From: Acidobacteriota bacterium
GTDB lineage: Bacteria > Acidobacteriota > Thermoanaerobaculia > Multivoradales > J023
DNA: 64,000 bases
Assembly: GCA_029263395.1 (NCBI GenBank)
Contig: JAJCXO010000018.1
Coordinates: 1 to 64,000 of the forward strand
Reading direction: 5' to 3'
Shown here: piece by piece, positions 1,264 to 62,482 of the stretch
How positions within the stretch are numbered: position 1 is the first letter of the stretch
How the letters are laid out: each line of letters starts with the position of its first letter
Made by a program: the position numbers and the translations under genes
The notes under the pieces: generated by a model
Databases searched by the model: none
Seen by the model: only the letters and a program-made list of their open reading frames with translations
What the model was told of the DNA's origin: nothing

Positions 1264-1855
1264 TCCTCAACGTTGAGGACGGTGTTCTCAGATTCTCTAG
1301 GGGGTGTCCTCAATAGTGAGGAAGACCATTTTTAGTTTCCGAGTTTGGCGTCCTCACCATTGAGGAAGCCCTTCCGCGCCGGAGAAATCGTCGCCTTCAG
1401 AGGAAATGCACACGACCTGAGAGTCTCAGGTCGCTCGCCTCACGGCTTTGACGGTAACCTGGGCGTCTCGGGTCGCCGTCCTCATCATTGAGGGCATCTT
1501 GGGAGATCCCGGGCAAGGTCTCCTCAGCGCTGAGGAAGGAACCGACGTTCTGGGATGACCGTCCTCACTGGTGAGGAGGCCTCTCGCGTCAGGCAGAAGG
1601 TGGACCTCAGTGGTGAGGCAGACGACCCGAGACACTCTGGTCACATGCCAAACGGTGAGGAAGGTCACCGGAGCCTCTCGGGTTGCCGTCCTCGCGGCTG
1701 AGGAAGGCAGGCCAGTGTCTCGGGTCGGCGTCAAAACCATGAGGCGAGCGACTGGAGACTGAAGGAGGGGTTCCTCAATGGTGAAGACGGGGTCCAGAGA
1801 TTCTCGGGTTACTGTCCTCGTAAGAGAGGCCTCCTCGGTCGTGGTTCCGCCCTTT
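1264..1855. repeat. Non-coding 42-bp tandem array 1 with dyad per unit
   Basis: About 14 degenerate units start near 1264, 1307, 1351, 1394, 1437, 1479, 1521, 1562, 1604, 1646, 1689, 1731, 1772 and 1815, a period of 41-44 bp. Most units open with the palindrome TCCTCA-N4-TGAGGA. Many then carry a weaker shared block ending in CTCTCGGGTNGCCG. A second hairpin lies about 21 bp after the first: CGACCTGAG-AGT-CTCAGGTCG at 1413-1433 and GACCCGAG-ACA-CTCTGGTC at 1624-1642 are the best. The period is not a constant multiple of three, so no frame is preserved and the array is not coding. It lies between two small secreted-protein genes. Confidence 0.85.
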
Positions 1856-1869
1856 CAGGTCACCGCGCA

Positions 1870-1899
1870 CGCTCGCCAGGAGCTTTGGCCTGGCGAGCG
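1870..1899 (-). terminator. Hairpin after the Cys-rich minus-strand gene
   Basis: CGCTCGCCAGG, an 8-nt loop and CCTGGCGAGCG form a perfect 11-bp stem about 50 bp beyond the stop codon of the minus-strand gene that ends at 1952. There is no clear U-tract on either strand, so an intrinsic terminator is plausible but not proven. Confidence 0.45.
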
Positions 1900-1951
1900 C
1901 GCTGGCTAGCCGCTGATCAGACGAAAACCGTGGCAGCAACGTGACGAGAGA

Positions 1952-2281
1952 TCAGTTGTAGCAAACGAAGGCATTGGAGACGCAACTGCACCAAAACCAC
2001 TCACAGTAGGCGGAGTCGTAGCACCGGGGTCGACCCGCCGGACCCGAAGCTTCGCAATACGTCCCCTCGATAAGGCTACATTCCGAGGGGTGCAGTTGAG
2101 ACAGGATCGGAAGCATTGGGGAGGGCAGCCCAAAGTTATCCCCGGTGAGGCTGGTGGCCGGATCGAGTTGCTCCAAGGTCCCTGTGTTCGAGGGCTCCGA
2201 GGACGTAGCGGCCTCCACACCGGCGGTCTGAAGAGCGAAGACAAGCAAGAGAACAGAAGCGACAGTCAATAGAATCTTCAT
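1952..2281 (-). CDS. Small secreted Cys-rich protein
   Basis: The frame is open further upstream, but the ATG at 2281 has AAAGGA seven bases before it and opens a strong signal peptide (MKILLTVASVLLLVFALQT, cleavage near GVEA). The product is 109 residues. The last 45 residues contain all seven Cys, in a compact arrangement ending CEWFWCSCVSNAFVCYN, so the exported part is probably a small disulfide-bonded knot. No family is recognised. It could be a secreted effector, a surface protein or a precursor peptide; no modifying enzyme is adjacent. Confidence 0.65.
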   Translation of the reverse strand: MKILLTVASVLLLVFALQTAGVEAATSSEPSNTGTLEQLDPATSLTGDNFGLPSPMLPILSQLHPSECSLIEGTYCEASGPAGRPRCYDSAYCEWFWCSCVSNAFVCYN

Positions 2282-2812
2282 TTGAATTCCTTTGGTGATG
2301 AACAAACGTTGAGAAAAACCTTTTGATGCGTTACTGAGTCGCAGTTGGTCGTAGAAAGCAACGATCCCATCGGAACCACGCAGACTACGCCAGAGTCTGG
2401 ACCTCAGACTGGGACGAGTGTGGACCTTGGGAGAGGCCGGGGCCTTCGGGTCCATTAGAAAGTTGATATCGGATCTAGCGGATCGCACCTCCTCTCACCG
2501 TTTGCAGGTTAGCTAGAGATGCCACGGAGACGTTGACCAGGCCGGCGCCTGATCGCGGCATCTCAACTTCGACTTGCGACATGACCATCACTATTAGCAA
2601 GCTTGATACCAATTTCGACTACAGCCCCAAAGGGGCTGTTGCGCCCCCTGCGAAAACAAAGTTGCCCATGGAGTGAACAGGACCCTGCGCACACTCTGGG
2701 CAAACAGGGCGCCAGCAGTGGCGCCAGCAGACCGTTGTATGCTCGTCCTCGGGTGAACAAAAAAGAGTCGCGGCCGTAGCTCCGGGCAGGTGAAGCCTCG
2801 AATATCGCCACG
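2282..2812. other. Gene-free region with one strong hairpin
   Basis: About 530 bp without a convincing gene. It holds the 5' region of the minus-strand Cys-rich gene and the upstream region of the decayed kinase. ACAGCCCC-AAA-GGGGCTGT at 2621-2639 is a perfect 8-bp hairpin, and GGCGCCAGCAG is directly repeated near 2709-2732. Minus-strand open frames here have no start signal or family resemblance. Confidence 0.4.
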
Positions 2813-4595
2813 ATGAAACATGCCAAGACTCCCAAGCATCCCAAGACCCCCAACCCCAGCGCCCCCGGCAAGACGCTGGAGAGCTCCCGGCGTGTGACCA
2901 CAGAGCCCCAGGAAAACGAGCAGCCCGCCGCCGAAACCCAGGCGACAGACTCTCTAGCGACAGCAACTCTCAGCCCCGAGACCCTTGGCTCAAATCGGCC
3001 TTGGCAAGAGTTGCAACGCGGCGACTGCCTGGGCCGGTATCTGGTGCTGGAACTGATTGGCCGCGGCAGTATGGGGCAGGTCTACTCTGCCTACGATCCC
3101 AAGCTCAACCGCAAAGTGGCACTCAAGCTGCTCGCTGCCTCGCGAGGTCATCGCGAGGCTTTACGTTGCCGACTGATCCGCGAAGCACGGGCGCTCGCAC
3201 GACTGAGCCACCCCAATGTGGTGGCGGTCTTCGATGCCGAGACGGTCGACGGCCAAGTTTTCATCGCCACTGAATTCGTCGTCGGGCAGACGCTTTCTGA
3301 ATGGCTCCGGAACGGGCGCCGCTCACGCGCTGAGATCCTCGGAATCCTTGCCGACGCCGGCCAAGGGTTGGCCGCCGCCCACGAGGCCGGTCTCGTACAT
3401 CGAGACTTCAAAGGCAGCAACATCATGGTGGCCGACAACCACCGCGTGGTGGTGCTCGACTTTGGGCTGGCGCGCCAACTCGGCCCCTCGACTGATCAGC
3501 AACCTTCCGTCTCTCGCTTCTTGCTCGGATACGCGGGCGCTACGCTCGCCCTCGCCGCCGCCCCAAGCTCCGGCAAGGCGCCGCCAGCTCGACCAACTCC
3601 GTGAGGGACTGGCCGACGTCAAGGCTCTGTGGCTGGTCGGCGACTACGAGAGCGGCCTGAAAGCAGCCAAAGACCTCACCCAAGCCGCACAAGGCTTCGG
3701 CTACTGGCCGTTGACCGCTGAGGTTCTGATCGAAAACGCACGTTTTCTCGAATCCCGGGGAGACGCTGCAGCAGCGGATCAAGCTTTGATCGAGACCCTG
3801 CTCGCCGCCCAGGCCGGCGGCCACGCGCGCGTCGCTGCCGAAGCCCTGGTACGGCGTGTTCGCGTCCAGGGTTCTGCAGCTCTCGATATCCGCCGCCAGG
3901 CTTTGGGGCAGGAGCACGTGCGAGTGGCCATGTCGCTGACCGACATTGCCAACGCACTGAGTGGGCTCGGGAGATTTGAAGAGGCCGTGGCGAGCTTCGA
4001 GCAGGCCGTGCAGATCTTCGAACACAAGCTAGGCCCAGACTCCCCATTTCTCGCCATCGCCCTGTCGAATCTGGCCGCTGCCCACATCCGGCAGTCGCGG
4101 GCGGGGCAGGCTCTGCCGCTCTATCAGAGAGCCCTCGATATCCAACGCCAGCACCACGGCGCAGAGCATCCGCGAGCCTTGCAAGCGACCTTCAACCTTG
4201 CCGAGACTCTGCGCCGGAGCGGCCGGGCCGAGCAAGCGATTCCCCAGCTCCAGAGGGTCATCCGACACATGCCTCAGCAGGTCGAGACACCGTCCTCCCT
4301 GCTCACCGACGCAAGAACCGCACTCGGCGAAGCCTATTTGGATTTGGGTTTTGCGCAGCGCGCTGTGCCTCTCCTCACCGAGTCTTTGGCGGCCAGGCCC
4401 GAGGCGGGCAGGCGACCCGATCTATGGGCCAAGAACGCATTCGCCTTGGCACGGGCTTTCCAGGCACTCGACCAAGAGCCGCAACAGGCCCTCGAGCTGG
4501 CACGCTCGGCGCTGGATCGCTACCGCCACCGGCCAGCGAGCTACCGGGCAGAGATCGAAGCGATCGAGCGGTGGCTGAAGCTCTGCGAGCCTTGA
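2813..4595 (+). pseudogene. Decayed Ser/Thr kinase-TPR protein
   Basis: The first frame (2813-3604) encodes an N-lobe with the glycine loop IGRGSMGQVY, VALK lysine, catalytic HRDFKGSN and DFGLA, then stops abruptly. The activation segment, APE motif and the rest of the C-lobe are missing. A second frame, shifted, continues to 4595 with RRRQLDQLREGLADVKALW and TPRs with ALGQEH and KLGPDSP repeats typical of the C-terminal half of kinase-TPR proteins. The missing C-lobe plus the frame change near 3540-3604 point to an internal deletion of several hundred bases. The TPR half might still be translated, but no ribosome site is evident. The N-terminal extension is Pro/Lys rich with small repeats. 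Confidence 0.75.
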
Positions 4596-4704
4596 GCTCT
4601 CTGGATGCCATCGAGATCACTTGAAAACCGATGGCCCGAACTTTGCTTAGGACATCTCTTGTCTCGACTCTCTGCGTCCTAGAATCCAACAGGAGGAACT
4701 CCAT

Positions 4705-5862
4705 ATGACTCTATCTTTTGTGACGCGCTTCTTGACCTCTTTGATCATCTCATGGATCTCACTACCACTCCTGGCCCAAGACGACTTCTGGGCTCTGCTT
4801 CAGGAGCAGCCGTTCGAATTCACCGTCGCCGATTTGATCGCCAACGACCCAAGGGATGACGCGGGTCTCGATGATGTTGAGCCACACATCACTATTGAGC
4901 CCGAACCCTCGAAAGGAGTCCTGACGAGATCAGGAAACCAGTTCTCCTACCAACCTAAAGCATACTTCTTCGGCATCGACACTTTTCGTTACTCGTGGAT
5001 CGGCCCATCCGGCCCGATCGAGGGCGTCGTCGAGCTCTTCGTCGCGCCGTGGTTCACTCCGCTTGCGGGTCCAATGGGTTTACTGGGCCCAAATGAAGAC
5101 CCGGGGCCAGAAGGGATCGGCTATTACAACAGCCATAGCGGTACCTTCTACTTCTGCCTTCTCCCTTCTGGCCAAGCCATGGACTGCACGCCCTATCGCT
5201 ACCCTGGATTCAAACCAGGCTGGTTGCCCTTGCTCGGCACCTGGCAGACCCAAACAGGCCAGTTCCGGCCGAATCGACCAGGTCTCTACGATCCGGTGGC
5301 GCGCCGGATCTATCTTCTGGATGAGAATCCGGCGGACTGCCAAACCTGCTCCGACGCGCGACCCTTGCAAGTGCTCGACCAATTCGAGCTCGACAGCGCC
5401 AACCCTTCGGCGGTGATTCCGATCGCCGCCGACCTGGACCGCGGTGGCATCGACTCAGTGGCCTTCTTCCGGCCGAGCGAGCGGCGATTCGACGACACCT
5501 CGGGTTCGTCCGCGCTCGATCCTGAGCTTGAGGACCTAACTCTGTGGCCCTTGACAGTTCCTGACGAATATGGCTTTGACGAGCTCGCGGTTTTTGGCCA
5601 GGAGAGTGGCGACTTGAACGTGCTGGCGCCACAACGCGAACCGGCAAGGCTGCGGTCCGGCACGGCGAGCCTGGCGACGGCTCGCCAAGTCGGGTCCATG
5701 GTCGCCTACGGAGTCTACGATGCCTGCGATCATTCCCTGTTGGAATTAAGACTGGAGTGGTCCGAGATCGACCGTCCCGTCAGGTCGGGTACCCAGATTC
5801 TGCAATTCCCGAACGATCCTGACCCGCCACCAAGCGGCGGCAGGACCTGTGCGCAGCCTTGA
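4705..5862 (+). CDS. Secreted protein with cadherin-like/Ig-like segment
   Basis: ATG at 4705 follows AGGAGG, and the product starts with a signal peptide (SLIISWISLPLLAQ). Residues about 38-115 resemble the tandem cadherin-like fold of surface proteins (FTVADLIANDPRDDAG, then SYQPKAYFFGIDTFRYSW). The remainder (about 250 residues) contains short segments of the type seen in secreted beta-propeller-like repeats (RPNRPGLYDPVARRIYLLDE; IPIAADLDRGGIDSVAFFRP). Likely exported to the periplasm or surface; the function is unknown. It ends 28 bp from the convergent regulator gene. Confidence 0.7.
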   Translation: MTLSFVTRFLTSLIISWISLPLLAQDDFWALLQEQPFEFTVADLIANDPRDDAGLDDVEPHITIEPEPSKGVLTRSGNQFSYQPKAYFFGIDTFRYSWIGPSGPIEGVVELFVAPWFTPLAGPMGLLGPNEDPGPEGIGYYNSHSGTFYFCLLPSGQAMDCTPYRYPGFKPGWLPLLGTWQTQTGQFRPNRPGLYDPVARRIYLLDENPADCQTCSDARPLQVLDQFELDSANPSAVIPIAADLDRGGIDSVAFFRPSERRFDDTSGSSALDPELEDLTLWPLTVPDEYGFDELAVFGQESGDLNVLAPQREPARLRSGTASLATARQVGSMVAYGVYDACDHSLLELRLEWSEIDRPVRSGTQILQFPNDPDPPPSGGRTCAQP

Positions 5863-5889
5863 CGGTCCAACCCTCCATCACCTGACGCT

Positions 5890-7314
5890 TCAGTCGCCGA
5901 GGTCCAGGCGCTCGAGACGTATCGTAAGGCCATTGCGCGAGATGCCCAGCAGTCGGGCGGTGGCTGAACGGTTGCCGCCGGTCTGCTCGAGGGCCCTCTC
6001 CACCAGCCGGCGTTCGAGCGCCTCGAGAAAAACAGCCAAGGGCTGCGACCCGAGCTCGAGGCGATCGGCCAGGAGCTCGATCGGACCGCGAGGCGAGGCG
6101 CGGAATTCGCCGAGCATCGCCGAATCGATGGCCTGACCGTCCGGGCACAAGTAGACGAGACGTCGGATCTCATTCTGTAGCTCGCGGATGTTGCCCGGCC
6201 AGGGCCGCTCTCGCAGGACGCTCATCGCCCTGACCGTCAACCCGCGAACCCGCTTGCCGATCTCGCGGTTGATCTGCCGAATGAAATGACCGACCAAAAT
6301 CGGTAGATCTACCGCGCGATCTCGCAGCGCCGGAACGGCCAGCTCAAAACCGGCCAAACGATAATAGAGATCAGCACGAAACTGCCCTTGCCCGATGCGC
6401 GAACCGAGATCCGCATTGGTTGCCGCGATGAAACGTACATCGACTGACTCGGCGCTCTCACCAAGCGGTATTACCTCCTTTTCCTGCAGAATGCGCAGCA
6501 GCTTGGCTTGCAGAGGTTGCTCCAATTCGCCGACCTCGTCCAGGAAGAGGGTTCCGCCCGCCGCTTGGCGAATCTTGCCACGCCGCGCCGCAACACCCGT
6601 AGCCACCCCTTTGCCGATGCCAAAAAGCTCAGCTTCGAGTAACTCGCTCGGCACGGCAGCGCAATTGATAGCAACAAAAGGACCTCCACGGCGCGGCGAG
6701 CCGAGATGCACCGCCTGAGCCAGGTGTTCCTTGCCGACGCCGGTTTCGCCCGTAATCAAAACCGCCACGTCGCCACGTCGCAGTGCCGCCAGCTGTTGAT
6801 AAAGCTCGACGATGGCAGGCGAGATCCCCGCCACGATGCCGACCGGGAGCTCGACGCCAGCGGGCAAGCTGGGAGACTCCGCGGTGAGAGGCAACGTCTC
6901 GTCCTCGATCGATGTCGCCTCTCCATGGTCACTCGGAGGTTCGACTTCGACCGCCAAGTCGACGTCGTCGTCCGGCACGGCCTCCAACTTCCATCGAGTG
7001 GCACCGAAGGTCACTTCGTCGCCGAGCCTCAGCACATCTTGCTCGATGGGCAGGCCAGCCACCCGCGTACCGTTCTTGCTGCCGAGATCCCTCACCAAGC
7101 AACGCTCAGGCTCGACACGAATGACTGCGTGACGGCGAGAAATACCCCGATCTTCGAGCCGGCAGGCACAATCTCTGTCGCTACCCACCAAGTTGTCACC
7201 TGCTTTGAGAAGCAAATGCCGATACGCATCGGAGCCTGTCTCGCGGAGACGCAGGTGTTCTCCTTGACTGCCCTCTTCCTGGTGGTGTTCTCGGGTTTGG
7301 CGGTCGACTCGCAT
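5890..7314 (-). CDS. FHA-domain AAA+ (sigma-54-type) transcriptional regulator
   Basis: The 474-residue protein has an FHA domain at about residues 38-110 (GSDRDCACRL, ISRRHAVI, DLGSKNGTRVAG), which binds phosphothreonine and links it to Ser/Thr kinase signalling. A NtrC-type AAA+ domain follows with Walker A GETGVGKEH, Walker B GGTLFLDEVGE and the arginine-finger region. A Fis-type helix-turn-helix closes the protein (NRSATARLLGISRNGLTIR). The GAFTGA loop that contacts sigma-54 is replaced by GVATGV, so sigma-54 contact is doubtful even though the fold is clear. Start choice is not certain; an AGAGAG stretch precedes the ATG used. Confidence 0.9.
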   Translation of the reverse strand: MRVDRQTREHHQEEGSQGEHLRLRETGSDAYRHLLLKAGDNLVGSDRDCACRLEDRGISRRHAVIRVEPERCLVRDLGSKNGTRVAGLPIEQDVLRLGDEVTFGATRWKLEAVPDDDVDLAVEVEPPSDHGEATSIEDETLPLTAESPSLPAGVELPVGIVAGISPAIVELYQQLAALRRGDVAVLITGETGVGKEHLAQAVHLGSPRRGGPFVAINCAAVPSELLEAELFGIGKGVATGVAARRGKIRQAAGGTLFLDEVGELEQPLQAKLLRILQEKEVIPLGESAESVDVRFIAATNADLGSRIGQGQFRADLYYRLAGFELAVPALRDRAVDLPILVGHFIRQINREIGKRVRGLTVRAMSVLRERPWPGNIRELQNEIRRLVYLCPDGQAIDSAMLGEFRASPRGPIELLADRLELGSQPLAVFLEALERRLVERALEQTGGNRSATARLLGISRNGLTIRLERLDLGD

Positions 7315-7575
7315 GCGAAAACTCTCTCTGCTCGCATGATAGCCGCAAGCGCATATTGCGAGCTAATCCAGAGAGTTTGGTCGCGATCGGAGGCGGAACA
7401 ATCGCCTTCAGGGATTGATCCGAAGGCGGAAGCGCGCGGCAGTATCTCACACGCAGAACCGTCAGATTTGCGCCTGAGTGATGGTGTCTGTTGGCGATCG
7501 TGGTTGGGGTGGTAGAGTGCTGCCCCCTGAGTACCCCTTGGCTCGTTGACTACGACCCTTTCAGGGCGGGCGAAC

Positions 7576-8001
7576 TCAGAGGTTGTCCAAGAAGCTTTCG
7601 ATCTCTTCAGCGAAAGCGCTGAACGCTCCAAGCTCAACTTGCAAGGAGTCGAAGACGCGCCCGACGTCGAGATCCATGTAACCGTGGACCAGGATGTTGC
7701 GAAACCCTCCGAGCCCTTGGAAACTCTCACGCAAACCAGCGGAGATGACACCTTGATCAGCCAGCCGAGTCAACACGTCTTCATAGTCGGAAGGGTGAAC
7801 ATTGAAGTGGCCGGCCAAGATGTGATTACCGACATCAAAAACCGCTTCAGCCGCCAGGTGTAGCCCCCTTTCCGCCAACCAATAGTGGCGGAAGGAGGTG
7901 ATGAACTCCTGACGCGGGATTTGCTGGACCATCTTCAGGTTGGCGAGCACCTCCCGCAGCTTACGCAACCGCTCGAGGACCACGGCCAATCGCAACGTCA
8001 T
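7576..8001 (-). CDS. hepT: HepT-like toxin (HEPN domain)
   Basis: The ATG at 8001 overlaps the stop of mntA by four bases (ATGA), the usual translational coupling of this pair. The 141-residue all-helical product carries the HEPN RNase motif R-X4-H-X-Y as RNILVHGY in its C-terminal third. In the known family HepT is an RNase toxin that the partner MntA neutralises by adding AMP to the motif tyrosine. The substrate here is unknown. An in-frame start further upstream (8061) lies inside mntA and is less likely. Confidence 0.85.
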   Translation of the reverse strand: MTLRLAVVLERLRKLREVLANLKMVQQIPRQEFITSFRHYWLAERGLHLAAEAVFDVGNHILAGHFNVHPSDYEDVLTRLADQGVISAGLRESFQGLGGFRNILVHGYMDLDVGRVFDSLQVELGAFSAFAEEIESFLDNL

Positions 8002-8390
8002 CGAGTCGCGTCTCGCAGAATCTGCTGCTGAGTCGACCGCAGGAAGGCGGTATCGAAACACTCCATGGCGGCTCGTTCCTCAAAACGATCCGCGGCCTCG
8101 GAATCTCGGGCAAAAAGCCGTCGCCCTGCAGCCACCACTTCATAACGAAGAAGCGGCGGGGCATGGTTCAGCACCACGAAGTCAATATCGTCTCGCCGCA
8201 ATGCCTGCACAACTCGGGAGCGCAAACGTAGCTCGTCTTTGAGACTGAGGCTTCGGTCCAACAGCACGGCCATATCGACGTCACTGCGCGGCCCCGCAGT
8301 CCCTCGGGCGACAGAGCCGAAGCCGTAGACCGCCATCACCCGCGAGTCCTCAGCTAGACGATCCGCGGCAAGTTGTAGAGTACTACTCAT
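7998..8390 (-). CDS. mntA: MntA-like minimal nucleotidyltransferase antitoxin
   Basis: The 130-residue protein has the GSX10DXD motif of minimal nucleotidyltransferases (GSVARGTAGPRSDVDMAVLL), followed by a third carboxylate region near DIDFVVL. This matches MntA antitoxins that AMPylate HepT. The ATG at 8390 starts directly before the helix LQLAADRLAED; upstream in-frame codons to 8468 are low in coding character. It precedes hepT with a 4-bp overlap, so the two form an operon. Confidence 0.85.
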   Translation of the reverse strand: MSSTLQLAADRLAEDSRVMAVYGFGSVARGTAGPRSDVDMAVLLDRSLSLKDELRLRSRVVQALRRDDIDFVVLNHAPPLLRYEVVAAGRRLFARDSEAADRFEERAAMECFDTAFLRSTQQQILRDATR

Positions 8391-8489
8391 GACATTGGCA
8401 GACAGCTTAGCATGTTGAAACGGGAGCCAAGACGCCCTGGGATCACGTCCACTCGTGCCTCCAGGCACACGGATGGCACCACGGGAACA

Positions 8490-8564
8490 GAGCAGAGCAG
8501 GAAGACCGCAAAGTCAAGGTCGAGGCGCTGGAGTGAGTCGTCTTCCTGTCTGCAGATCAGCCCG
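8490..8564 (+). repeat. Dispersed ~75-bp repeat, copy B
   Basis: Second copy of the element at 947-1022, in the same orientation, in the gap between the MntA start and the symporter stop. After it, TGATCA-containing palindromes recur (CTGCAGATCAG, CTGCTGATCAA, CAGCTGATCAG). No gene accompanies this copy. Confidence 0.55.
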
Positions 8565-8592
8565 TCTGCTGATCAATCGGTGGGCCAGCTGA

Positions 8593-10227: not shown

Positions 10228-10328
10228 CTGTTGCTCCTTCCGACCGGCTCAGCGGTCGCCATAGGTCAGGCGTCGTGGCGTTCAAAAATTCGTCGTCGAC
10301 ACGGTGTCTTTATCGATACCGTTTGGAT

Positions 10329-11810: not shown

Positions 11811-11817
11811 GACTCGC

Positions 11818-42580: not shown

Positions 42581-44063
42581 CGCAGCCACTGCCCGGAACA
42601 GCCCGATCGAGGGCGGCACAGGCATCGATCGAGTGCGTGGTTTTGCCCTCCAGCCCAGCCACTGAACGCGACGTGGAGCGCAGAATAGCGGCGAGCTGCT
42701 CAGCTTTCAAGCCGGGAGCACGCTCGAGCAACAGGGCGAGGACGCCAGAGACGTGGGCGGCGGCAAACGAGCTGCCAGAGACAAAATCGTAGCGATCACC
42801 GGGGTGGGTGGCGAGGATGTCTTGCCCAGGTGCGCGCAGCAGCGACGTTGGATCTTCGGCAACCCACTCGGCGGCATCCGACTGGACCACCAACACCCCT
42901 TCCAGACACCCAGGAAAGGCCACCGACTCGACATCACGGTCGTAGGCTGTGACTACCGCAATGCCGTCGTCCAAGGCGACGCGCAACAGCCGTTCCAGTA
43001 GTGGATCGCGGGGCCCCGTCAAGCTGAGATTGACAATGTCGGGCCGATGATCGACCACAAACGCCAACGCCTTGGCGAGGGTAAAACTATTGCAGATGCC
43101 GGAGGTGCCCCCCGGTGGTTCCCAACAAGCCCGCAACGCCAGAATACGTGACGCTGGAGCAACACCTACAGTGCCGATGCCATTGTTGGCAACCGACGCG
43201 ATGACCCCGGCCACCGCGGTGCCATGTAACTCGGCCAGCTGGGTCACCGAAATGCCGTGCAACTCGGCCAGCTGACCCGGGCCGGACAGCTGATCCTTAC
43301 GCGACAAGTCACTGACAAAATCTTTGGCCATCACGACGCTGGCTGCGAGGTCCATATGGGCCCGATCCACCCCGGTATCAACCACCGCCAACGTAACACC
43401 TCGGCCGCCGGACGATGGGTGGACGTCAAAGACCCGCATTGTGCTCAGTCCGTGTTGCATCTCGACATAAGGATCGTCGTAGGCGGCAGCCCGTGAGCCC
43501 AAAACTTCAAAACGTTGCATAGGCTGGACCGACTCGACCCGCGCATCCCGCGCCAGGCGGTTGACCATATCGTCCATCGGCTGGCCGGCGGGCACTTCGA
43601 AGACGACACAGTAAACGCCGAGCGCTCGGATCGGCCAACCCTCGACTTCGAGCAAGCGGTACTGCCGAGCAAGCCGAGCAACCACCCGACGAGTCCGTTC
43701 CGAACGTGTGTAAGTTGACGAACCGACATATTGCCGAGACGTCGAACCGGCGGCCCGTAGCGGCTGAGGATCAGTTTGGGTCAAGGTCACCAAGATCCGC
43801 CGCTCTGGAGCAGCTTTAGCGTTAGCCACGACAGACTCTGTGCCTACCGAGACAGACTCGGTGCCTGCCGCGACAGACTCTGTACCTGCCGCCACAGACT
43901 CTGCGTCTTCGGCAACAGACCCTGTCGACTGAGTGACCGGCATCGCGAAACCCGAGCATCCCTCTAGCAGACCCATCGACAAGAGTACCGCCAACATGAG
44001 TCGACGGTGCAGACGCCTGAGGTTTTGAAGGATCGCGGGGTTCAGCATGGCAGGGTTTTCCAA
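42546..44063 (-). CDS. Lipoprotein subtilisin-like serine protease (S8)
   Basis: 505 residues. A membrane-spanning signal (LMLAVLLSMGLLEGCSG) has a plausible lipobox before Cys. A low-complexity segment of ESVAAGT repeats follows (see repeat at 43827), then an inhibitor-like prodomain (VVFEVPAGQPMDDMVNRLAR). The catalytic domain has Asp in VVDTGVDRAH, His in LAELHGTAVAGVIAS and Ser in SGSSFAAAHVSGVLALL. The His segment is preceded by a second copy, LAELHGISVTQ, produced by a 33-bp duplication. Probably anchored to the outer or inner membrane with its catalytic part outside the cytosol. Confidence 0.88.
   Translation of the reverse strand: MENPAMLNPAILQNLRRLHRRLMLAVLLSMGLLEGCSGFAMPVTQSTGSVAEDAESVAAGTESVAAGTESVSVGTESVVANAKAAPERRILVTLTQTDPQPLRAAGSTSRQYVGSSTYTRSERTRRVVARLARQYRLLEVEGWPIRALGVYCVVFEVPAGQPMDDMVNRLARDARVESVQPMQRFEVLGSRAAAYDDPYVEMQHGLSTMRVFDVHPSSGGRGVTLAVVDTGVDRAHMDLAASVVMAKDFVSDLSRKDQLSGPGQLAELHGISVTQLAELHGTAVAGVIASVANNGIGTVGVAPASRILALRACWEPPGGTSGICNSFTLAKALAFVVDHRPDIVNLSLTGPRDPLLERLLRVALDDGIAVVTAYDRDVESVAFPGCLEGVLVVQSDAAEWVAEDPTSLLRAPGQDILATHPGDRYDFVSGSSFAAAHVSGVLALLLERAPGLKAEQLAAILRSTSRSVAGLEGKTTHSIDACAALDRAVPGSGCVTARGVDSARR
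43221..43276 (-). repeat. 33-bp tandem duplication inside the protease catalytic domain
   Basis: On the plus strand AACTCGGCCAGCTG occurs twice, 33 bp apart, encoding LAELHG in both copies. The duplicated block covers the segment around the catalytic histidine (first copy HGISVTQ, second copy HGTAVAG). The second copy matches the family motif. Confidence 0.8.
43827..43934 (-). repeat. 21-bp minisatellite in the protease linker
   Basis: Four to five 21-bp units encode degenerate repeats of ESVAAGT (variants SVSVGTE, SVVANAK at the edges) just after the lipobox. It probably forms a flexible linker between the lipid anchor and the prodomain. The copies differ at a few positions, so it is a little older than the promoter repeats. 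Confidence 0.75.
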
Positions 44064-48822: not shown

Positions 48823-48905
48823 CGATCACTGTCCCTAGCGGTCACTGTTCATGCGATCACTGTTCATGCGATCACTGTTCCTGCGATCACTGTTCCTGCG
48901 ATCAC
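48823..48905. repeat. 15-bp minisatellite between divergent genes
   Basis: CGATCACTGTTCNTG repeats 5.5 times (48823-48905) with a 16-bp first copy. It lies in the 210-bp gap upstream of both divergent genes (TPR-like, minus; VOC, plus). The repeated CACTG blocks could act as iterated binding sites, but the near identity also suggests recent slippage. Confidence 0.85.
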
Positions 48906-48997
48906 AACGCTACCACTCACTACCCGTGCTAGCTTAACGTACGGATTGCAGAATACCCACCGGTTTGCTGACGGCCTCTCTAACCAAGGAGCTCAAC

Positions 48998-52156: not shown

Positions 52157-52159
52157 AAC

Positions 52160-56221: not shown

Positions 56222-56374
56222 CGAGACACCTGCGCGCCGCCGACGTCGACCTCGACCCGATAGCCGCCGCGACGCGCCGTGACGCCAGCACCACGCACAC
56301 CGGAAGAGAAACAACGCCGATTGTCGGCATTGCTCCCGGCCAAAACCTAAACTCACTTCTGATACCCAATTTGT

Positions 56375-59300
56375 ATGACTGAATCAACCAACGAAGCTCA
56401 ATCGCCGCCCCCTTCGCGCCCGCCGAGACGTCGAGGCCGCAAGCGTTCTCGCGGCAATGCCAAGAACCGTCCGGTACCCCTGCACAAGCGCAGCCGGTCG
56501 CACTTCCAGCAAGGCGACCGCCAACGTGGGGCGCGATACTTCACCGAGGGCCGAGTCAGCCTGGTGATCGATGGCAACCGCGCCAAGGCCCGCGTCAACG
56601 GTACCGAACGCCAAAACTATTCAGTCGGCTTCGATTGGTCCCGAGTGGCCGGGGAGCGAGTTCTCCACGCATTCTGTGACTGTCAACGCTTCGCTGGCGG
56701 CAGTCCGTGCAAACATCTGTGGGCGACCCTCCTCGCTCTGGCCGAAACCGGACCGGAGAACCAACCGCCGGGTAAAGATCGCCTCGGACTGCGCAAGGAT
56801 CGGCTCCAAGCCTGGCCCGATCTCGGCGTGGCCGGTGACCTGCAAGGACAAGTGCCGGTACCGCCGGCACGGCCACGCCCACGCCCCACCCGGCGCAAGC
56901 GCGGCGGTCGCGGTGGCAATGATCACGGCACCGCCATCTCTTGGCGCTCACAATTCGGATCCATCCGCGAGGACATCAACGCATTGTCCAACGCTGCCCA
57001 CACCGCAGCCCTCGCTCCGGCGCGCCCGGCAATGGATATTTTCTTCCTGATCAACACCACTGCCAGTCTCGGCACCAGCGGTTTGGTCCTCGACATCTTC
57101 GGGCGTGGCCGCAACAACACCGGCAAACCCAGCAAACTCAAGCGGGTCAGCGTCAATCTCGAAGAGATCGACGCCATGCTGCTGCCCAAGTCATCCACCG
57201 AATCCTCGGTCGACTCAGTGGCGGTTGTTGCTGCGCTGCCGATCGAGCAGCCGAACCGTCAGGGCCGCCGCGGTCCGGTCAAGGCGCATCCGGCAAAAGC
57301 GCAACGCCTGCGCCTGCCGCAACGGCTCTACGACCCCGTGTTGTCACACCTGTGTGCCAAGGGCACCCTCGGTTGGTGGGACGGTCGCGCACTGCGGGCC
57401 TTACAGCCCCTGTCCTGGAACACTTCCCCGCCGTGGCGACTGGCCCTTCATCTCGAGATCGCCACGGCCGGCAGCGCACGGTTGCGCGGCGGGCTGGAGC
57501 GCGAAGGCGAGAGCCTACCCCTCTCTGCCGCCGAGCTGATTCTGCCTACCGGCCCAGCCGCTGACGGCAGCAGCAATGGCCGAGCACCCAATCCCGTTGG
57601 TCTTGCCAACCTGCCTGCAATCCCTGGGCAACCAGCAGCCATTACGGCTGGCCCGGCCTTGATTCTGCTCGGCGATTCGATCGCCCGACTCGAGGTCGAA
57701 TCGCAGCGAGATCTGCCCTGGTTGTCGCTGCTGCGTGGCGCCGACGAGATTCTGATCCCCAAGGAGGATCTCGAAGAAGCGCTGACGGCTCTGCTGGAGC
57801 TACCTAATCTGCCGCGGCTCGAAGCCCCTATCGAGCTCCAGCTGTCCGAAGAAAAACCGACGCCACAGCCCCATCTGGTGCTCGAAGCTGACCCCGCCCC
57901 GGCGTGGATGAATCCACCGTTGCTCGCCGAGTTGTCCTTCGATTACGGCACCATGCAGCTGAGTGCTGGCGACCCCCGTTCAGCGGTGGTCGATTGGCAA
58001 GGTCAGAAGTTCCTGCGCCGCGACATGGAGTCCGAACACGGCGCCCTGGTGCGGCTGCTCGAGCTCGGACTGCAACCGGTGGCGTCGAGCCAAGGGCACG
58101 GGCTCGAGCTCGAGCCACGGGCTTTGCCCAGCGTCGTCGAGCCGCTGTTGCTCGACGGCTGGTCGGTAGAAGTCCATGGTGCCACCATGCGCCCGCCGAG
58201 CGCACCCGCGTTGCGGGTGGAGAGTGGGATCGACTGGTTCGAGCTGTCGGGCGAAGTCGACTTCGACGGCGATATGGTCGAGCTGTCGAAAGTGCTCGAT
58301 TCGATCTCCCGCGGTGATCGTTTCATCTTGCTCGAAGATGGCTCGAAGGGTCTGCTCCCCGAAGCCTGGATGCAAACCTACGACTCGTTGTCGAAACTCG
58401 CCACCAGCTCGAGTGATGCTGGCCTGCGGTTCATTCCGTCGCAAGCCCTGCTGGTCGACGCCCTGCTCACCGCCATGCCTCCCGCCGTCGACACGGCGTT
58501 TTCCAAACTGCGCGACAAGCTGCTGTCGTTCGACCGCATCAAGCCCAAAAAAGAGCCCCGCGGCTTCGACGGTACTCTGCGCAGTTATCAACGTGATGGT
58601 TTGGGCTGGCTCAACTTCCTGCGCGAGTTTGGCCTCGGCGGCGTGCTCGCGGATGACATGGGTCTCGGTAAAACGGTGCAGGTACTGGCGCTGTTGCGGG
58701 CCAACCGCACACCGTCCAAAACCACCGGTCTTCCCTACCTGGTGGTGGCACCCCGCAGTGTGGTCTACAACTGGCTCGACGAAGCGGCACGTTTCACGCC
58801 CAAATTGAAGGTGGTCGAATACAGCGGCGCCGATCGCGAAGCGATCCGCGCCAAGCTCAACGACTACGATGTGGTGGTGACCACCTACGGCACCTTGCGG
58901 CGGGACATCGGCTACTTGGCGACGGTCGATTTCGACACGGTGATCCTCGATGAGGCCCAAGCGATCAAGAACCCCGGGTCCCAGACCGCCAAGGCCAGTC
59001 GCTTGCTGGTGGCCAGGCATCGCCTGGCCCTCACCGGTACGCCGATCGAGAACCACCTCGGCGAGCTCGGCTCGCTGTTCGAGTTCCTCAATCCAGGGTT
59101 ACTCGGTCGCCTGCCGATCCTCGAAGTGCTCAGTGGTGGCCGCACCGCCAGCAAACAAGAGCTGGCGCTGGTCGCCGAGGGTATTCGCCCGTTCATCTTG
59201 CGGCGTACCAAAGCCCAGGTGTTACCCGACTTGCCCGAGAAGACCGAACAGGTTTTGCTCACCACCTTGCTGCCGGAGCAAAAGAAGGTCTACGACCAGC

Positions 59301-59956
59301 TGCGCGCCAAATACCAAGCCAGCTTGTTGGAGCAGGTGGAGTCGCAAGGGGTCAAGAAGTCGACCATGCAAGTGCTCGAAGCGCTGCTCCGTCTGCGTCA
59401 GGTGGCCTGTCACCCGGGTCTGGTCGACGAGTCGTTCGAAGAGGCTGGCAGTGCCAAACTCGAGGCCCTTTACAGCCAGGTCTCGGAAGTGCTCGACGAA
59501 GGCCACAAGCTGATCATCTTCTCGCAGTTCACCAAGCTGCTCGGCTACGTGCAACGGCATTTCGATCAGCAAGGCACACCCTACGCCTACCTCGACGGCC
59601 AGACCCGCAACCGCGGCGACGTCGTCGATCGCTTCCAGACCGACCCAACCTGCAACATCTTCCTGGTCAGCCTCAAAGCCGGCGGCACCGGTCTCAACCT
59701 GACCGCCGCCGGTTACGTCTTCCTGCTCGATCCGTGGTGGAACCCCGCCGTCGAAGCCCAGGCCATCGACCGTGCCCACCGTATCGGCCAGACCCAGCCG
59801 GTATTCGCCTACCGCATGATCGCCCAGGATACCGTCGAAGAGAAGATCCTCGAACTGCAACGATCCAAACGTCAGATTGCCGACGCCATTTTGGAAGGGG
59901 AAGGCCAGTCGTTGAGTGATTTGACGGCTGATGATTTGAAGATGTTGTTGAGTTAG
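56375..59956 (+). CDS. SNF2-family helicase with SWIM zinc finger
   Basis: 1193 residues. An N-terminal basic tail is followed by a SWIM zinc finger (CDCQRFAGGSPCKHLWA, motif CXCX(n)CXH). A long middle region precedes the SNF2 ATPase with DDMGLGKTVQVLALL (Walker A), LDEAQAIKNPGSQ (Walker B) and the C-terminal helicase domain (VSLKAGGTGLNLTAAGYVFL; WWNPAVEAQAIDRAHRIGQT). The bacterial SNF2-SWIM proteins are thought to remodel DNA-protein complexes or aid repair. It stands alone in the region. Confidence 0.93.
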   Translation: MTESTNEAQSPPPSRPPRRRGRKRSRGNAKNRPVPLHKRSRSHFQQGDRQRGARYFTEGRVSLVIDGNRAKARVNGTERQNYSVGFDWSRVAGERVLHAFCDCQRFAGGSPCKHLWATLLALAETGPENQPPGKDRLGLRKDRLQAWPDLGVAGDLQGQVPVPPARPRPRPTRRKRGGRGGNDHGTAISWRSQFGSIREDINALSNAAHTAALAPARPAMDIFFLINTTASLGTSGLVLDIFGRGRNNTGKPSKLKRVSVNLEEIDAMLLPKSSTESSVDSVAVVAALPIEQPNRQGRRGPVKAHPAKAQRLRLPQRLYDPVLSHLCAKGTLGWWDGRALRALQPLSWNTSPPWRLALHLEIATAGSARLRGGLEREGESLPLSAAELILPTGPAADGSSNGRAPNPVGLANLPAIPGQPAAITAGPALILLGDSIARLEVESQRDLPWLSLLRGADEILIPKEDLEEALTALLELPNLPRLEAPIELQLSEEKPTPQPHLVLEADPAPAWMNPPLLAELSFDYGTMQLSAGDPRSAVVDWQGQKFLRRDMESEHGALVRLLELGLQPVASSQGHGLELEPRALPSVVEPLLLDGWSVEVHGATMRPPSAPALRVESGIDWFELSGEVDFDGDMVELSKVLDSISRGDRFILLEDGSKGLLPEAWMQTYDSLSKLATSSSDAGLRFIPSQALLVDALLTAMPPAVDTAFSKLRDKLLSFDRIKPKKEPRGFDGTLRSYQRDGLGWLNFLREFGLGGVLADDMGLGKTVQVLALLRANRTPSKTTGLPYLVVAPRSVVYNWLDEAARFTPKLKVVEYSGADREAIRAKLNDYDVVVTTYGTLRRDIGYLATVDFDTVILDEAQAIKNPGSQTAKASRLLVARHRLALTGTPIENHLGELGSLFEFLNPGLLGRLPILEVLSGGRTASKQELALVAEGIRPFILRRTKAQVLPDLPEKTEQVLLTTLLPEQKKVYDQLRAKYQASLLEQVESQGVKKSTMQVLEALLRLRQVACHPGLVDESFEEAGSAKLEALYSQVSEVLDEGHKLIIFSQFTKLLGYVQRHFDQQGTPYAYLDGQTRNRGDVVDRFQTDPTCNIFLVSLKAGGTGLNLTAAGYVFLLDPWWNPAVEAQAIDRAHRIGQTQPVFAYRMIAQDTVEEKILELQRSKRQIADAILEGEGQSLSDLTADDLKMLLS

Positions 59957-59986
59957 GTACCATCCAAGAACGCCGGTTGCCCGGTC

Positions 59987-60128
59987 GGCCCCTGTGGACT
60001 GTGCGCGCGCTGCGTAACTCGCCTCGGCGCCTTAGTGTCTGACAAACCTATTGGTTACAACAGTTTGGAGAACTAGGATCTGTTCTCTTGCTCAAACATA
60101 CTCGCCGCGTGCTCGCTCCACAGGGGCC
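59987..60128. repeat. 12-bp perfect inverted repeat bounding 142 bp
   Basis: GGCCCCTGTGGA (59987-59998) pairs exactly with TCCACAGGGGCC (60117-60128). The distance of 118 bp between them and absence of clear direct flanks fits a small mobile-element remnant (MITE-like) or a long-stem structure. GCCTCCC-T-GGGAGGC at 60126-60140 adds a second palindrome at the right end. Confidence 0.5.
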
Positions 60129-60233
60129 TCCCTGGGAGGCGAGAAACGGGTTCTCTGGATACAATCGAGTTAATTGAGATCAGGAGACCGGCGAGGTCGT
60201 ATCACTGATGTTGGCCCCCATGGAGCTCGCCCC

Positions 60234-60683
60234 GTGAAACTGGACATCAACGCGATAGACCTCCGGATCTCGCAGTTCATGGAGCGCTGGGGAGCCCATG
60301 CCCTGCGGTACTCGTTGGCGATGATTTTCATCTGGTTTGGGATGCTCAAGCCGTTGGGAATCTCCCCAGCTGAGACCCTAGTCAAACTCACCGTCGCTTG
60401 GATGCCCCTGTTCAGCGCGGATACCTGGCTAGGGATCATTGGCTGGTGGGAAGTCATCATCGGAGTGACCTTCCTCTTTCGACGCACCACTCGCTTGGCG
60501 ATCGCTCTGCTGGCGATGCAGATGGTGGGCACGTTCCTACCCTTGGTCATCCTGCCCGAAGTGACGTTTCAAGCCGGTCGCTTCCCGTTTGCACCGACGA
60601 TGGAAGGCCAATACATCGTCAAGAACCTGCTGATCATTTCCGCGGCGCTCGTCGTCGGAGGCACGCTGCGACATCGGAACTGA
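60234..60683 (+). CDS. DoxX/DUF417-like four-helix membrane protein
   Basis: GTG 60234 with GGAG upstream gives 149 residues; an in-frame start at 60174 is less convincing. Four hydrophobic helices (LRYSLAMIFIWFGMLKPLG; WLGIIGWWEVIIGVTFLFR; LAIALLAMQMVGTFLPLVIL; IVKNLLIISAALVVGG) match the DoxX/DUF417 membrane topology. The role in the family is oxidative stress or quinone-linked, but not settled. Confidence 0.7.
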   Translation: MKLDINAIDLRISQFMERWGAHALRYSLAMIFIWFGMLKPLGISPAETLVKLTVAWMPLFSADTWLGIIGWWEVIIGVTFLFRRTTRLAIALLAMQMVGTFLPLVILPEVTFQAGRFPFAPTMEGQYIVKNLLIISAALVVGGTLRHRN

Positions 60684-60801
60684 GCGGACTTGCCAGGTTC
60701 TGTGGGTCCAAGATGTGGGTCCAACTCGTCCAACCCCTCACCTGCCCGGCTACCGGAAGGAGTCCGCCAAACGCCAGCCCAGCACCCAGGCCAGACACGC
60801 C

Positions 60802-61052
60802 GTCCCGCAAGGACGTTATCCCTGAGCGAGGGATTTCAATCCCTCAGGATCTTGCCAGGCCATCCACTTCGGGTCCGAACCCCAACGGGGTTCCATACCA
60901 AAGCCCAGGGCAAGCGAAGCGCCGCCCTGGGAGAAGAGGTGCTCTGATTCGAACCCTGTAAGGGTTCTATACCGATCGCGACGGTCGGCGAAGGCATCGA
61001 GCCCCACGAGTGGTTGAAACCACTCGCTACGCGATAATGTCCCTGGCGGGAC
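60802..61052. repeat. Cluster of seven consecutive hairpins
   Basis: Hairpins at 60802-60814 (GTCC-CGCAA-GGAC), 60828-60845 (GAGGGATTTCAATCCCTC), 60877-60893 (GAACCCCAACGGGGTTC), 60904-60931 (CCCAGGGC ... GCCCTGGG), 60951-60967 (GAACCCTGTAAGGGTTC), 60972-60988 (CCGATCG-CGA-CGGTCGG), 61008-61025 (GAGTGGTTGAAACCACTC), 61039-61052 (GTCCC-TGGC-GGGAC). Short sequences between stems. This is the sort of palindromic mosaic seen repeatedly in GC-rich environmental genomes, possibly mobile-element debris or transcript-end structure. Confidence 0.8.
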
Positions 61053-61232
61053 AAAGAATCCAGTGCGAGTCACGACCCTCGAGAAACAGGTCCCATGTCT
61101 CTGCCCAAAGATTTTGACCGGGATGATGCACACCGGAATTCCGGCGTCAAACCCTGTCCTCAAACTACGGCCGGAAACGCTAGCTATCCGGCCCATGCTA
61201 GACTCGTTTACGCCCTGCATTTGGAAGCAACG

Positions 61233-61466
61233 ATGAACGACATCCTCCATCGAATCACGATCGATCCCGAAATCTGCAACGGGAAACCGACGATCCGTAG
61301 CAAGAGGATTACCGTCCAGACAATTCTGGAGTTTCTGACTGCCGGGGAAAGCCGTGAAGAAATTCTGCGCCAGTTTCCGTTTCTGGAAGCTGAAGATATC
61401 GAAGCTTGTTTGGCCTTCGCGACAACCTTGATGAGTCGGCACTATGTGATCCAGGTACCAGCTTGA
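61233..61466 (+). CDS. DUF433-type antitoxin-like protein
   Basis: ATG 61233 gives 77 residues matching DUF433 (ITIDPEICNGKPTIRSKRIT; LEFLTAGESREEILRQFPFL), a small winged-helix-like domain often found as the antitoxin partner of DUF5615. An in-frame ATG at 61095 would extend it by 46 residues without support. It precedes the DUF5615 gene by one base. Confidence 0.85.
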   Translation: MNDILHRITIDPEICNGKPTIRSKRITVQTILEFLTAGESREEILRQFPFLEAEDIEACLAFATTLMSRHYVIQVPA

Positions 61467-61467
61467 A

Positions 61468-61809
61468 ATGCCTCGGTACCTGATCGACGCCAATCTACCC
61501 TACTATTTTTCGGTCTGGCACGGCCCGGATTTCGTCCATGTCAAGGACCTCAATGAGGAATGGAAGGATTCTGAGGTTTGGGCCTACGCCAAACAACATG
61601 GCCTCATCATCGTGTCCAAGGACGCTGACTTCTCTGACAGGGTACTGCTTAGTCAACCGCCACCCCGAGTCATTCATGTCAAGCTCGGCAACATGAAGAT
61701 CGGGGCATTCCACCACGCCATCTCAAAGGTTTGGGACAAAGTGGATGAGCTGAGCCAGAGGTGCAAACTCGTTCAGATTTTTCACGACCGCATCGAAGGC
61801 ATAGGCTGA
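61468..61809 (+). CDS. DUF5615 PIN-like toxin-type protein
   Basis: 113 residues starting YLIDANLPYYFSVWH, with D/N positions of a PIN-like metal site (LIDANLP, VSKDADFSDRV) and the DUF5615 pattern. It pairs with the DUF433 gene directly upstream; the pair is likely a toxin-antitoxin module with RNase potential. No direct proof of activity. Confidence 0.85.
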   Translation: MPRYLIDANLPYYFSVWHGPDFVHVKDLNEEWKDSEVWAYAKQHGLIIVSKDADFSDRVLLSQPPPRVIHVKLGNMKIGAFHHAISKVWDKVDELSQRCKLVQIFHDRIEGIG

Positions 61810-62024
61810 GACTCGACGTCACCCATCGCTGTCGAGCCTCGGACGCCAGCGCGCAGCCCGGCAACGTCACTTGCAGGCGCTGCTGAGCCAATTGGCAAGC
61901 TTCCAGAAGCCACCGCAGACGACGCGAGCCCTTTGCGCGTCCTGCACCCCCTCGAACATCGACTGCTCGGCGTCTGCTCGAATCGTCTCAAGTCTCCACA
62001 GTGACAGTGACGCCAGCGCTCAAA

Positions 62025-62482
62025 TGCGCAACGCGACCACAGGCACTGTGGAGCCGACAGCACAACTGAGCACCTCGACAACCGGCGGTGTAAGCCTCTT
62101 GCTCAGCCCACAACAAGCTCGAACATCCGCTGTTCGGCCCTTGTGCAGACTCAACGGTGCCTCCGCAGGCTCTGCGATGCATTTGCTCAACGGAGCGAAC
62201 CCTTCAACAGTTGCTGTCGGACCGGCGCTCGATTGAGCGACGCCTGGGAACCGCTGGGAGGCACGCCGCGCAAATGAGCAGAGGTTCCGCACCGCTGGTT
62301 GAGCACCCTGCGCGATTGAGCAGAGCCTCAACCAGGCAGTGCGAAGCCTTCGTAAAACTGAGCGAAGCCGTCACAGTTGATGTGGAGCCCACCGTTGAAT
62401 TGAGCAACGCCGCCGCAGGCACTGTGGAGAGGCTGCGCAAATGAGCAACGCCTCCACAGTGCCTGTGTGTCCTCTGCTCAGG
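62025..62482. repeat. Non-coding 42-bp tandem array 2 with two hairpins per unit
   Basis: Eleven units start at 62025, 62067, 62109, 62151, 62193, 62234, 62275, 62317, 62359, 62401 and 62442, spaced 41-42 bp. The unit consensus starts TGAGCAACGCC and has CAG...CTGTGG in the middle. Hairpin one sits across unit borders with varying stems (CGCTC-GATT-GAGCG, GCTC-AACG-GAGC, CTGCGC-GATT-GAGCAG). Hairpin two has a 3-5-nt loop: CCACAG-GCA-CTGTGG, GAACA/TGTTC, CGCAG-GCT-CTGCG, ACAG-TTG-CTGT and CACAG-TGC-CTGTG. Stem letters change while pairing is kept. Units before about 62025 are weaker. No frame is conserved. Confidence 0.85.

Follow-up and report, generated by a model that had tools for sequence, protein, structure and literature searches.

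Repetitive extragenic palindromic (REP) sequences, bacterial interspersed mosaic elements (BIMEs), and REP doublets forming hairpins (REPINs) are described together with the REP-associated tyrosine transposases (RAYTs, or TnpA-REP), and are the systems closest to the arrays considered here. In Pseudomonas fluorescens SBW25, for example, a REPIN cluster adjoins each of three RAYT genes (PMC3116915), and the BIMEs have been linked to gyrase (PMC2817692). A survey of the HUH enzymes gives the motif Y---NP as the signature of the class-2 enzymes and reports atypical structures, with no tag, for some subclasses; REP-like sequences were reportedly not found there with subclasses 2.1 and 2.3, and its Table 1 lists none for subclass 1.2 (PMC6006769). 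The present analysis concerns a stretch of 64,000 nucleotides (hereafter, the window) of an Acidobacteriota bacterium, contig JAJCXO010000018.1, which contains two tandem arrays of palindromic units of about 42 bp, denominated array 1 and array 2. An earlier note, which presented 1264-62482 as a single span, had recognized both arrays; they occupy two distinct loci, and the sequence from one to the other consists mostly of open reading frames.

Arrays 1 and 2 are part of a class of intergenic tandem arrays found in this genus, in which a register of 41-43 bp, mostly of exactly 42 bp, is kept in several families of different sequence, some dispersed over several loci, and others met once. The family of common geometry and different sequence proposed in the earlier note is borne out by additional arrays in the genome itself (G000; 10.68 Mb in 291 contigs, labeled C) and in its congener (G001; contigs labeled gC), and by the lack of 42-bp arrays in 358 kb of two other genera. 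The portions of the literature covered by a search yielded no description of such arrays.

The components of array 1 are as follows:

1258 to 1819, forward strand: array 1, the window copy of family S1, a dispersed element of about 570 bp with units of 42-43 bp and two dyads per unit, delimited by alignment with the own-genome copies C176, C263, C5, and C218
1264 to 1279, no strand: dyad TCCTCA-N4-TGAGGA, first unit
1307 to 1322, no strand: dyad TCCTCA-N4-TGAGGA, 43 bp further on
1351 to 1366, no strand: dyad TCCTCA-N4-TGAGGA, 44 bp further on
1377 to 1409, forward strand: central block with no CCTCA dyad, kept among the copies and in G001 (copy alignment; G001 sequence)
1413 to 1433, no strand: dyad of the second type, CGACCTGAG-N3-CTCAGGTCG, with 9-bp arms and its center at 1423
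1521 to 1536, no strand: dyad TCCTCAGCGCTGAGGA
1562 to 1577, no strand: dyad TCCTCACTGGTGAGGA, 41 bp further on
1605 to 1618, no strand: dyad CCTCA-N4-TGAGG, 42 bp further on

The dyads of the TCCTCA-N4-TGAGGA type start at 1264, 1307, 1351, 1521, and 1562, with looser dyads between and beyond them. Against 200 dinucleotide shuffles, the dyad autocorrelation of array 1 peaks at lags of 42 (z 5.8) and 64 (z 5.1), and ten strong dyads are present, where 2.25 are expected. When dyads spaced 20-23 bp apart are chained irrespective of their sequence, array 1 yields 21 dyads, at 1271.5-1696.5, with a score of 15.25, compared with a best score of 7.9 in 2.56 Mb of shuffled sequence; a more permissive setting gives 31.0 versus 18.9, and the chains then extend through unrelated sequence. 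The mean dyad score over 89 anchors of the array-1 type peaks at 0 and -21.5, with lower peaks at +20.5/+21.5 and about 42. The array is alike on both strands, and is matched in the same places on both by the covariance model built for its type (R1).

Array 1 is dispersed in its own genome. A DNA search recovers four further long copies (C176, C263, C5, and C218; E 5e-105 to 3e-74), which are 73-77% identical to the window copy over stretches ranging from 9-482 to 9-570 of 601 bases, and shorter copies are also present. The alignments of all four to the window copy begin at 1258, and the longest reaches 1819. The five copies share the left end and the central block, have slightly variable right ends, and lie in unrelated flanks; pairwise comparisons, which extend over 477-584 bp and contain 2-23 gap positions each, give identities of 73-91%, the extremes including C176 and C263, which are 91% identical, and C218 and C5, with two gap positions in 577 bp at 80% identity. 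A search for the pattern TCCTCANNNNTGAGGA gives 22 hits in the genome and none in a reversed control; many of these hits are spaced 41-44 bp apart, and some are single and outside any array. The spacings of the units of this type are 41-44 bp, or multiples thereof where an anchor was missed, with a single exception of 62 bp at C103.

A scan for the exact-dyad doublet in a collection of 84,980 species, from which the records of the own genome may be absent, recovers a single record, a Capnocytophaga contig. With one array-1 copy as the DNA query, 11 of 98 genomes are matched at 0.01, the long matches being confined to G000 and G001. The R1 model and that of the array-2 type (R2) were searched in 30 genomes, in each of which 136-149 of thousands of first-look candidates were scored. 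Among the matches listed, R1 has at least 71 in G000 (best E 1.5e-25) and at least 32 in G001 (best E 6e-18), with weak matches in all of the 28 more distant genomes (best E 7e-7), and R2 has 38 in G000 (best E 6e-19) and 25 in G001 (best E 3e-7), with matches in 11 of the 28 (best E 1e-3). The distant matches, not each of which was inspected, are treated as background due to composition, and among the genomes searched, clear relatives of the arrays are found only in the congener. In the own genome, the matches at C208, C235, C291, C152, C10, C257, and C156:170293 were rejected, given that inspection revealed no array, and a weak R1 match at C263:54597 proved to be a different 42-bp array.

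Array 2 is more diverged, and its features are the following:

61930 to 62490, forward strand: array 2, of family S2, with diverged units of 41-42 bp and approximate limits (R2 matches within 61854-62496, unit list, autocorrelation)
62226 to 62477, forward strand: best-kept units of array 2, TTGAGC-AA-GCC plus CACAG-N3-CTGTG
60014 to 63817, no strand: segment with array 2, a DUF5615 gene, and a P450 gene (comparison with the syntenic G001 contig)

The gene of the DUF5615 protein, at 61468-61809, directly precedes the array. The congener lacks the whole segment of about 3.8 kb and has in its place 56 bp, most of which resemble 60802-60845 of the window. Taken alone, array 2 is at most weakly above chance, with lag 42 at z 2.5 and lag 20 at z 1.7 against the same number of shuffles, two strong dyads where 2.3 are expected, and a chain score of 3.9, which is within chance. 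Its tandem consensus is no more self-complementary than shuffled sequence (p 0.43), and the two best dyads of this consensus lie 9 bp apart. The array is secured because its relatives C234 and C253 have cleaner units of 41-42 bp, and because a lenient tandem-repeat call falls within it, at 62317-62459. The period of about 42 bp with dyads some 21 bp apart, which the earlier note had read in both arrays, is confirmed, being strongly above shuffles in array 1 and depending in array 2 on the support of these relatives. Units of 41-42 bp related to array 2 are found at C253, C234, C141, C214, and other loci, and in the congener, and the R2 model was itself built in part from array 2; one pattern search with an array-2 motif yielded no match. 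Over 34 anchors of this type, the main dyad peaks lie at -1.5 and 19.0, which is a distance of 20.5 bp, with a further peak at 8.0. The subfamily S2b (GTTGCTC-GTTT-GAGCAAC plus CACC-C-GGTG) is present at several loci in both species, with a common leader recognized by eye. Two loci are common to the two species, C267/gC730, where both flanking genes match (98% and 90%), and C234/gC84, where one does (79%), and the arrays at both differ in their number of units between the species.

The primary sequences of arrays 1 and 2 differ, as the earlier note had stated. A homology suggested at first by their common CTCA...TGAG core was rejected, as the comparison of the consensus sequences gives p 0.85 in a shuffle test, which indicates no detectable homology. 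In nine pairs of consensus sequences, three similarities were found, all within S2a, S2b, and S3 (p 0.044, below 0.002, and 0.008), and none in the other six. The two-dyad geometry described in that note stands in part: families 1 and 2 have a dyad spacing of 20.5-21.5 bp, and it is the period, rather than the half-period dyad, that is constant in the class as a whole, given that only eight of the 21 arrays of the wider catalogue with two dyads of at least five pairs have a spacing of 20-21 bp. Three others of these 21 have consensus units of 82-83 bp with dyads 41 bp apart. In a unit that is close to its own reverse complement, moreover, a dyad at the half-period follows mathematically, which makes the two-dyad pattern one property rather than two. 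Twenty of 47 distinct consensus units are self-complementary beyond shuffles (p<0.05); neither that of array 2 nor two of the array-1 type (L056 and L057) are among them.

The constancy of the period emerges from a survey of 30 stretches of the own genome (600 kb), in which tandem repeats with periods of up to 120 were called with at least 2.8 copies and a score of 60; the stretches were chosen regardless of arrays, though by hand rather than by random number, from large contigs, some of which had earlier array matches. Nine of the 36 arrays recovered have a period of 42, and none has one of 40, 41, or 43-45 bp; there is one each at 21, 23, 27, and 36, and the rest are at 15, 16, 18, 24, and 30. 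The earlier note had asked whether other arrays of this geometry exist in the genome or its relatives; these nine have the period, and others are found in G001. At a score of 50, the total rises to 44 arrays, with the nine kept and the addition of one of 39 bp and one of 46 bp. The 358 kb from two other genera of the family, in which some of the G002 stretches were sited on weak R1 matches, contain 17 arrays, none at 40-44 bp and one at 21 bp, and the difference in 42-bp arrays has P 0.012 after normalization for non-coding sequence. A lag-42 scan of these controls flagged L191 and L194, which on inspection have repeats of about 28 and 21 bp, the latter being half of 42. The periods at all the own-genus loci fetched, a set chosen partly for its arrays, peak at 41-43; four arrays of 61 bp are also present in this histogram.

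The nine survey arrays represent about seven families, with L178 and L212 forming one pair, L181 and L217 another, and L219 matching the array at C263:54400; five of the nine thus fall in three families present at more than one locus. The stem length exceeds that of shuffles (p<0.05) in five of the nine, compared with one of the remaining 27 arrays of the survey, where another is at 0.050, and one of the 17 control arrays. Extrapolation of their density, 15 per Mb, gives about 160 in the genome (Poisson range roughly 70-300), which may be too low, since several arrays lie at contig ends. Coding repeats were rejected as a general account, given the period of 41-44 in family 1 and of 41 in S2b. 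Four survey arrays (L178, L212, L219, and L223) overlap open frames, an overlap favored by a period divisible by three, and coding is possible for single arrays.

Some arrays lie beside genes of the Y1/HUH transposases. Matches to Y1_Tnp (PF01797) number 18 in G000 and 16 in G001, and the flanks of 28 of these 34 genes (109 kb) contain 12 arrays of 41-43 or 82-86 bp, at nine loci, versus the nine of the 600-kb survey. The number expected is 1.6 when scaled by base pairs (P 2e-7), and 4.4 when normalized for non-coding sequence (P 0.002), which was estimated with a crude caller of open reading frames; one array, L206 in the survey and L249 in the Y1 set, is counted in both, and lies 292 bp before a RAYT-like gene. 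Eight of the nine array-bearing loci have a 5' array, which precedes the assumed start codon by 130, 174, 274, 284, 292, 544, 1074, and 1156 bp; in five of them the distance is thus 130-292 bp. For tandem arrays of all periods in these flanks, 18 of 21 are on the 5' side (p 0.007). The family of the L170 array is found again near other Y1 genes, at C102 and, in a weak match, at C268, as well as at C234, C222, and C156. The earlier note had called for a search for an associated DNA- or RNA-binding gene, and these RAYT-like transposases are the candidates found for other families, with none found for arrays 1 and 2.

The three long proteins tried all resemble the NCBIfam REP-associated tyrosine transposase (NF047646; E 4e-12 to 9e-11), at 41.9-46.4 bits, below its cut-off of 80, and two of them score just under the Pfam Y1_Tnp cut-off. 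One short Y1 protein resembles an IS200 model, likewise under the cut-off. The two histidines of the HUH motif and a tyrosine of the catalytic type are invariant in all 20 aligned long proteins, of which L253 is missed by exact regular expressions; in the 19 matched by expression, the signature Y---NP is not present, and the motif is YxLSNT or YxLSHG. A separate, dispersed REP-like palindrome, CCGGGGCTGGCG...GCGTGAGCC (L169, 1163-1296), has similar copies at L169, L170, L056, L156, L174, L172, and L009, several of which are near short Y1 genes.

The arrays may well be REP/BIME-like, non-autonomous DNA elements copied by RAYT-related Y1/HUH transposases, with a register of perhaps helical or enzymatic origin, a reading that is preferred tentatively and stands close to even. 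It derives its support from the five array-1 copies with the same left end in unrelated flanks, and from the 12 arrays at Y1 genes, most of them 5'. The hairpins of the arrays, exposed on single-stranded DNA, would be recognized and copied by transposases related to the RAYTs, through which the families would spread, and unequal recombination would lengthen and shorten the arrays. Selection for an equal helical phase of repeated binding sites could fix the 42 bp, which represent four helical turns, with the half-period dyads two turns apart; this is the simplest guess as to the cause of the ruler, and the footprint of the enzyme would be an alternative origin. A more specific proposal, that the arrays are genus-specific DNA elements on a sequence-independent, four-turn ruler of 42 bp that reflects the geometry of the enzyme or the helix, and serve as a substrate or assembly site for HUH/Y1 subclasses with no known DNA partner, is conceivable, if doubtful.

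A number of observations weigh against copying by these enzymes. Inspection by eye of the surroundings of the array-1 copies revealed no target-site duplication, and no common foot tag (GTAG, GT[AG]G, or CGTC) was recognized in the consensus units by inspection, with no statistical test; CGTC or GACG abuts the dyad in S1, S2a, and S2b only. The normalized enrichment at Y1 genes is moderate, and the 5' bias of these arrays (10 of 12) has p 0.07. The tandem repeats of other periods at these genes are also mostly 5' (eight upstream, one downstream), and a less elaborate measure, based on identity at lag 42 within 1.2 kb, is positive in seven of 27 upstream and four of 24 downstream regions. Array families common to different Y1 groups (L170/L246 and L259/L261) speak against a strict pairing of enzyme and repeat. 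The contig of the window has no PF01797 match, and families 1 and 2 are not convincingly present at Y1 loci, where R1 reaches E 4e-4 (L261) and 8e-3 (L259), and R2 has no match at 0.01. The sole S2b array near a RAYT-like gene, at gC730, is about 1 kb from the gene, on its 3' side.

The arrays might instead be neutral minisatellites, that is, hairpin-prone intergenic DNA amplified by slippage and recombination, with no dedicated enzyme, in which case the enrichment at Y1 genes would only mark islands rich in mobile elements. The variation in unit number at the loci common to both species, the location of array 2 in a segment missing from the congener, the four of nine survey arrays with no stem beyond shuffles, and the lack of covariation in the dyads are all consistent with this process, which leaves unexplained the single period in different families and the spread of a whole array of about 570 bp with a fixed end, and is somewhat unlikely as an account of the class.

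A phased protein-binding track, in which a nucleoid, partition-like, or gyrase-binding complex would form on rows of dyads that face the same side of the helix, the linkage to the transposases being secondary, is unlikely. The register of 41-43 bp across different sequences, the distance of 20.5-21.5 bp between the dyads of families 1 and 2, and the few gaps between copies such as C218 and C5 would fit such a track, as would the precedent of the F-plasmid centromere, with twelve 43-bp tandem repeats and ten inverted-repeat motifs bound by ParB (PMC6238139). The many sequence families, however, would demand many proteins, or one blind to sequence, and the half-period dyads are absent from many arrays. 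The neighboring genes, which the earlier note had proposed comparing, vary in their orientation and, when clustered, include no single likely binder. The genes flanking the arrays at L006, L055, L148, and L162 are read as response-regulator-like (36-44% identical), and presumably accompanied by sensor-kinase-like genes in three of the four cases; the two kinds of gene are thus present at four and three of the 34 loci, respectively, but are 27-44% identical and of a common kind.

The symmetry of the arrays is read as that of DNA, and a role in RNA is less likely. Watson-Crick pairs in the dyads number 1056, versus 1052 expected under independence, which indicates no covariation. With arbitrary orientation, there are 91 G-U and 63 A-C pairs and 155 other mismatches. 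In oriented units, G-U versus A-C counts are 35 to 49 in S1, 10 to 13 in S2a dyad A (16 to 12 in a shifted register), 14 to 27 in S2a dyad B, and 10 to 9 in S2b dyad A. The extremes are S1b dyad A, with 1 to 40, where the A-C pairs would read as G-U on the opposite strand, and S2b dyad B, with 26 to 1. Both would be compatible with wobble pairing in one of the two strands, and both arise largely from positions at which the pair in question is already that of the consensus, or from a shifted register. As single-stranded DNA, array 1 folds with z -7.7 against shuffles and array 2 with z -2.85; array 1 is best folded as a single long fold-back, and it folds well on either strand because it is nearly self-complementary. 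At the gathering score, Rfam matches no array in the window and nine loci, the sole match being a tRNA, and near array 1 there is just one promoter-like pattern and one, distant, terminator-like pattern. The flanking genes, according to a simple reader of open frames, converge at arrays 1 and 2, C103, and C267, diverge at C218, C214, C124, and C234, and run in the same direction at other loci, C263 and C116 among them. With the dyads giving no covariation and no steady G-U excess, no Rfam family, and this varied gene orientation, a structured non-coding RNA acting through hairpins in its transcript is very unlikely, and the multi-hairpin RNA, decoy RNA, and transcript scaffold offered in the earlier note are not supported.

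Other features accompany some arrays. An uncharacterized protein family adjoins or lies near five of them (contig coordinates: L146, 4033-4902; L152, 9149-10048; L157, 5031-5978; L150, 102961-103848; L057, 29666-30610), with no Pfam match for two members and no PADLOC match for one. The neighbor family MRSKASF..., searched with a fragment of 40 amino acids in five genomes, is present in two, at three places, and has no Pfam or PADLOC match. A PhdYefM antitoxin gene adjoins the C176 array, and the frame beside the C162 array is, presumably, MazF-like; toxin-antitoxin genes are near several arrays, but were rejected as a common partner, as they are of no common type. The window also contains a dispersed repeat of about 200 bp (59956-60205), unrelated to the arrays, with at least 35 matches in G001 at 72-92% identity and two further places among the stretches compared; a 21-bp tandem repeat (43825-43931) in the frame of a subtilisin-like protease, as read from its translation, which encodes an AGTESVA-type repeat; and a 15-bp tandem repeat of the CGATCACTGTTCCTG type (48823-48921), with about 5.5 copies.

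That one repeat length recurs in different sequences is unusual, and its cause can be put to the test. Should the RAYT-like link hold, the arrays would provide candidate DNA substrates for Y1/HUH subclasses reported as having no REP sequences (PMC6006769), and natural, phase-controlled palindromic arrays for the study of nucleoid proteins, gyrase, and single-strand transposition.

In comparison with the known systems, the arrays share with sopC of the F plasmid the tandem units with inverted-repeat motifs (43 bp, and ten motifs in twelve units, in sopC; PMC6238139), but sopC is one plasmid locus with one cognate ParB, whereas the arrays here have scattered loci, many sequences, and differing neighbor genes; no par-like protein is found among ten proteins checked, no search having been aimed at par genes. 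The long proteins, mostly of 315-370 amino acids with HUH, resemble TnpA-Y1 subclasses 2.1 and 2.3 (the median of 2.3 being 325), and the short proteins have YI..Q..HH, like the motif of subclass 1.2, as far as that survey describes them (PMC6006769). Unlike these subclasses, which are assigned here by description rather than from a tree, several such genes have tandem palindromic arrays on their 5' side. Like the REP, BIME, and REPIN sequences with their RAYTs, the arrays are intergenic palindromes, dispersed and sometimes in tandem clusters, with an HUH/Y1 enzyme beside clusters of some families, and short extragenic palindromes in multiple copies per genome, as in REP sequences, are found here as dyad units, mostly intergenic and at many loci, with multiplicity counted as arrays and not as more than 100 identical singles. 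They differ in being head-to-tail, with a near-constant 42 bp in different families, in having no established inverted REP pair around a gene, and in the tyrosine motif of their enzymes. The REP/BIME-like class is the nearest known kind, from which these arrays are set apart by the 42-bp register, by palindromes with no common tag at the foot, and by enzymes that are not typical.

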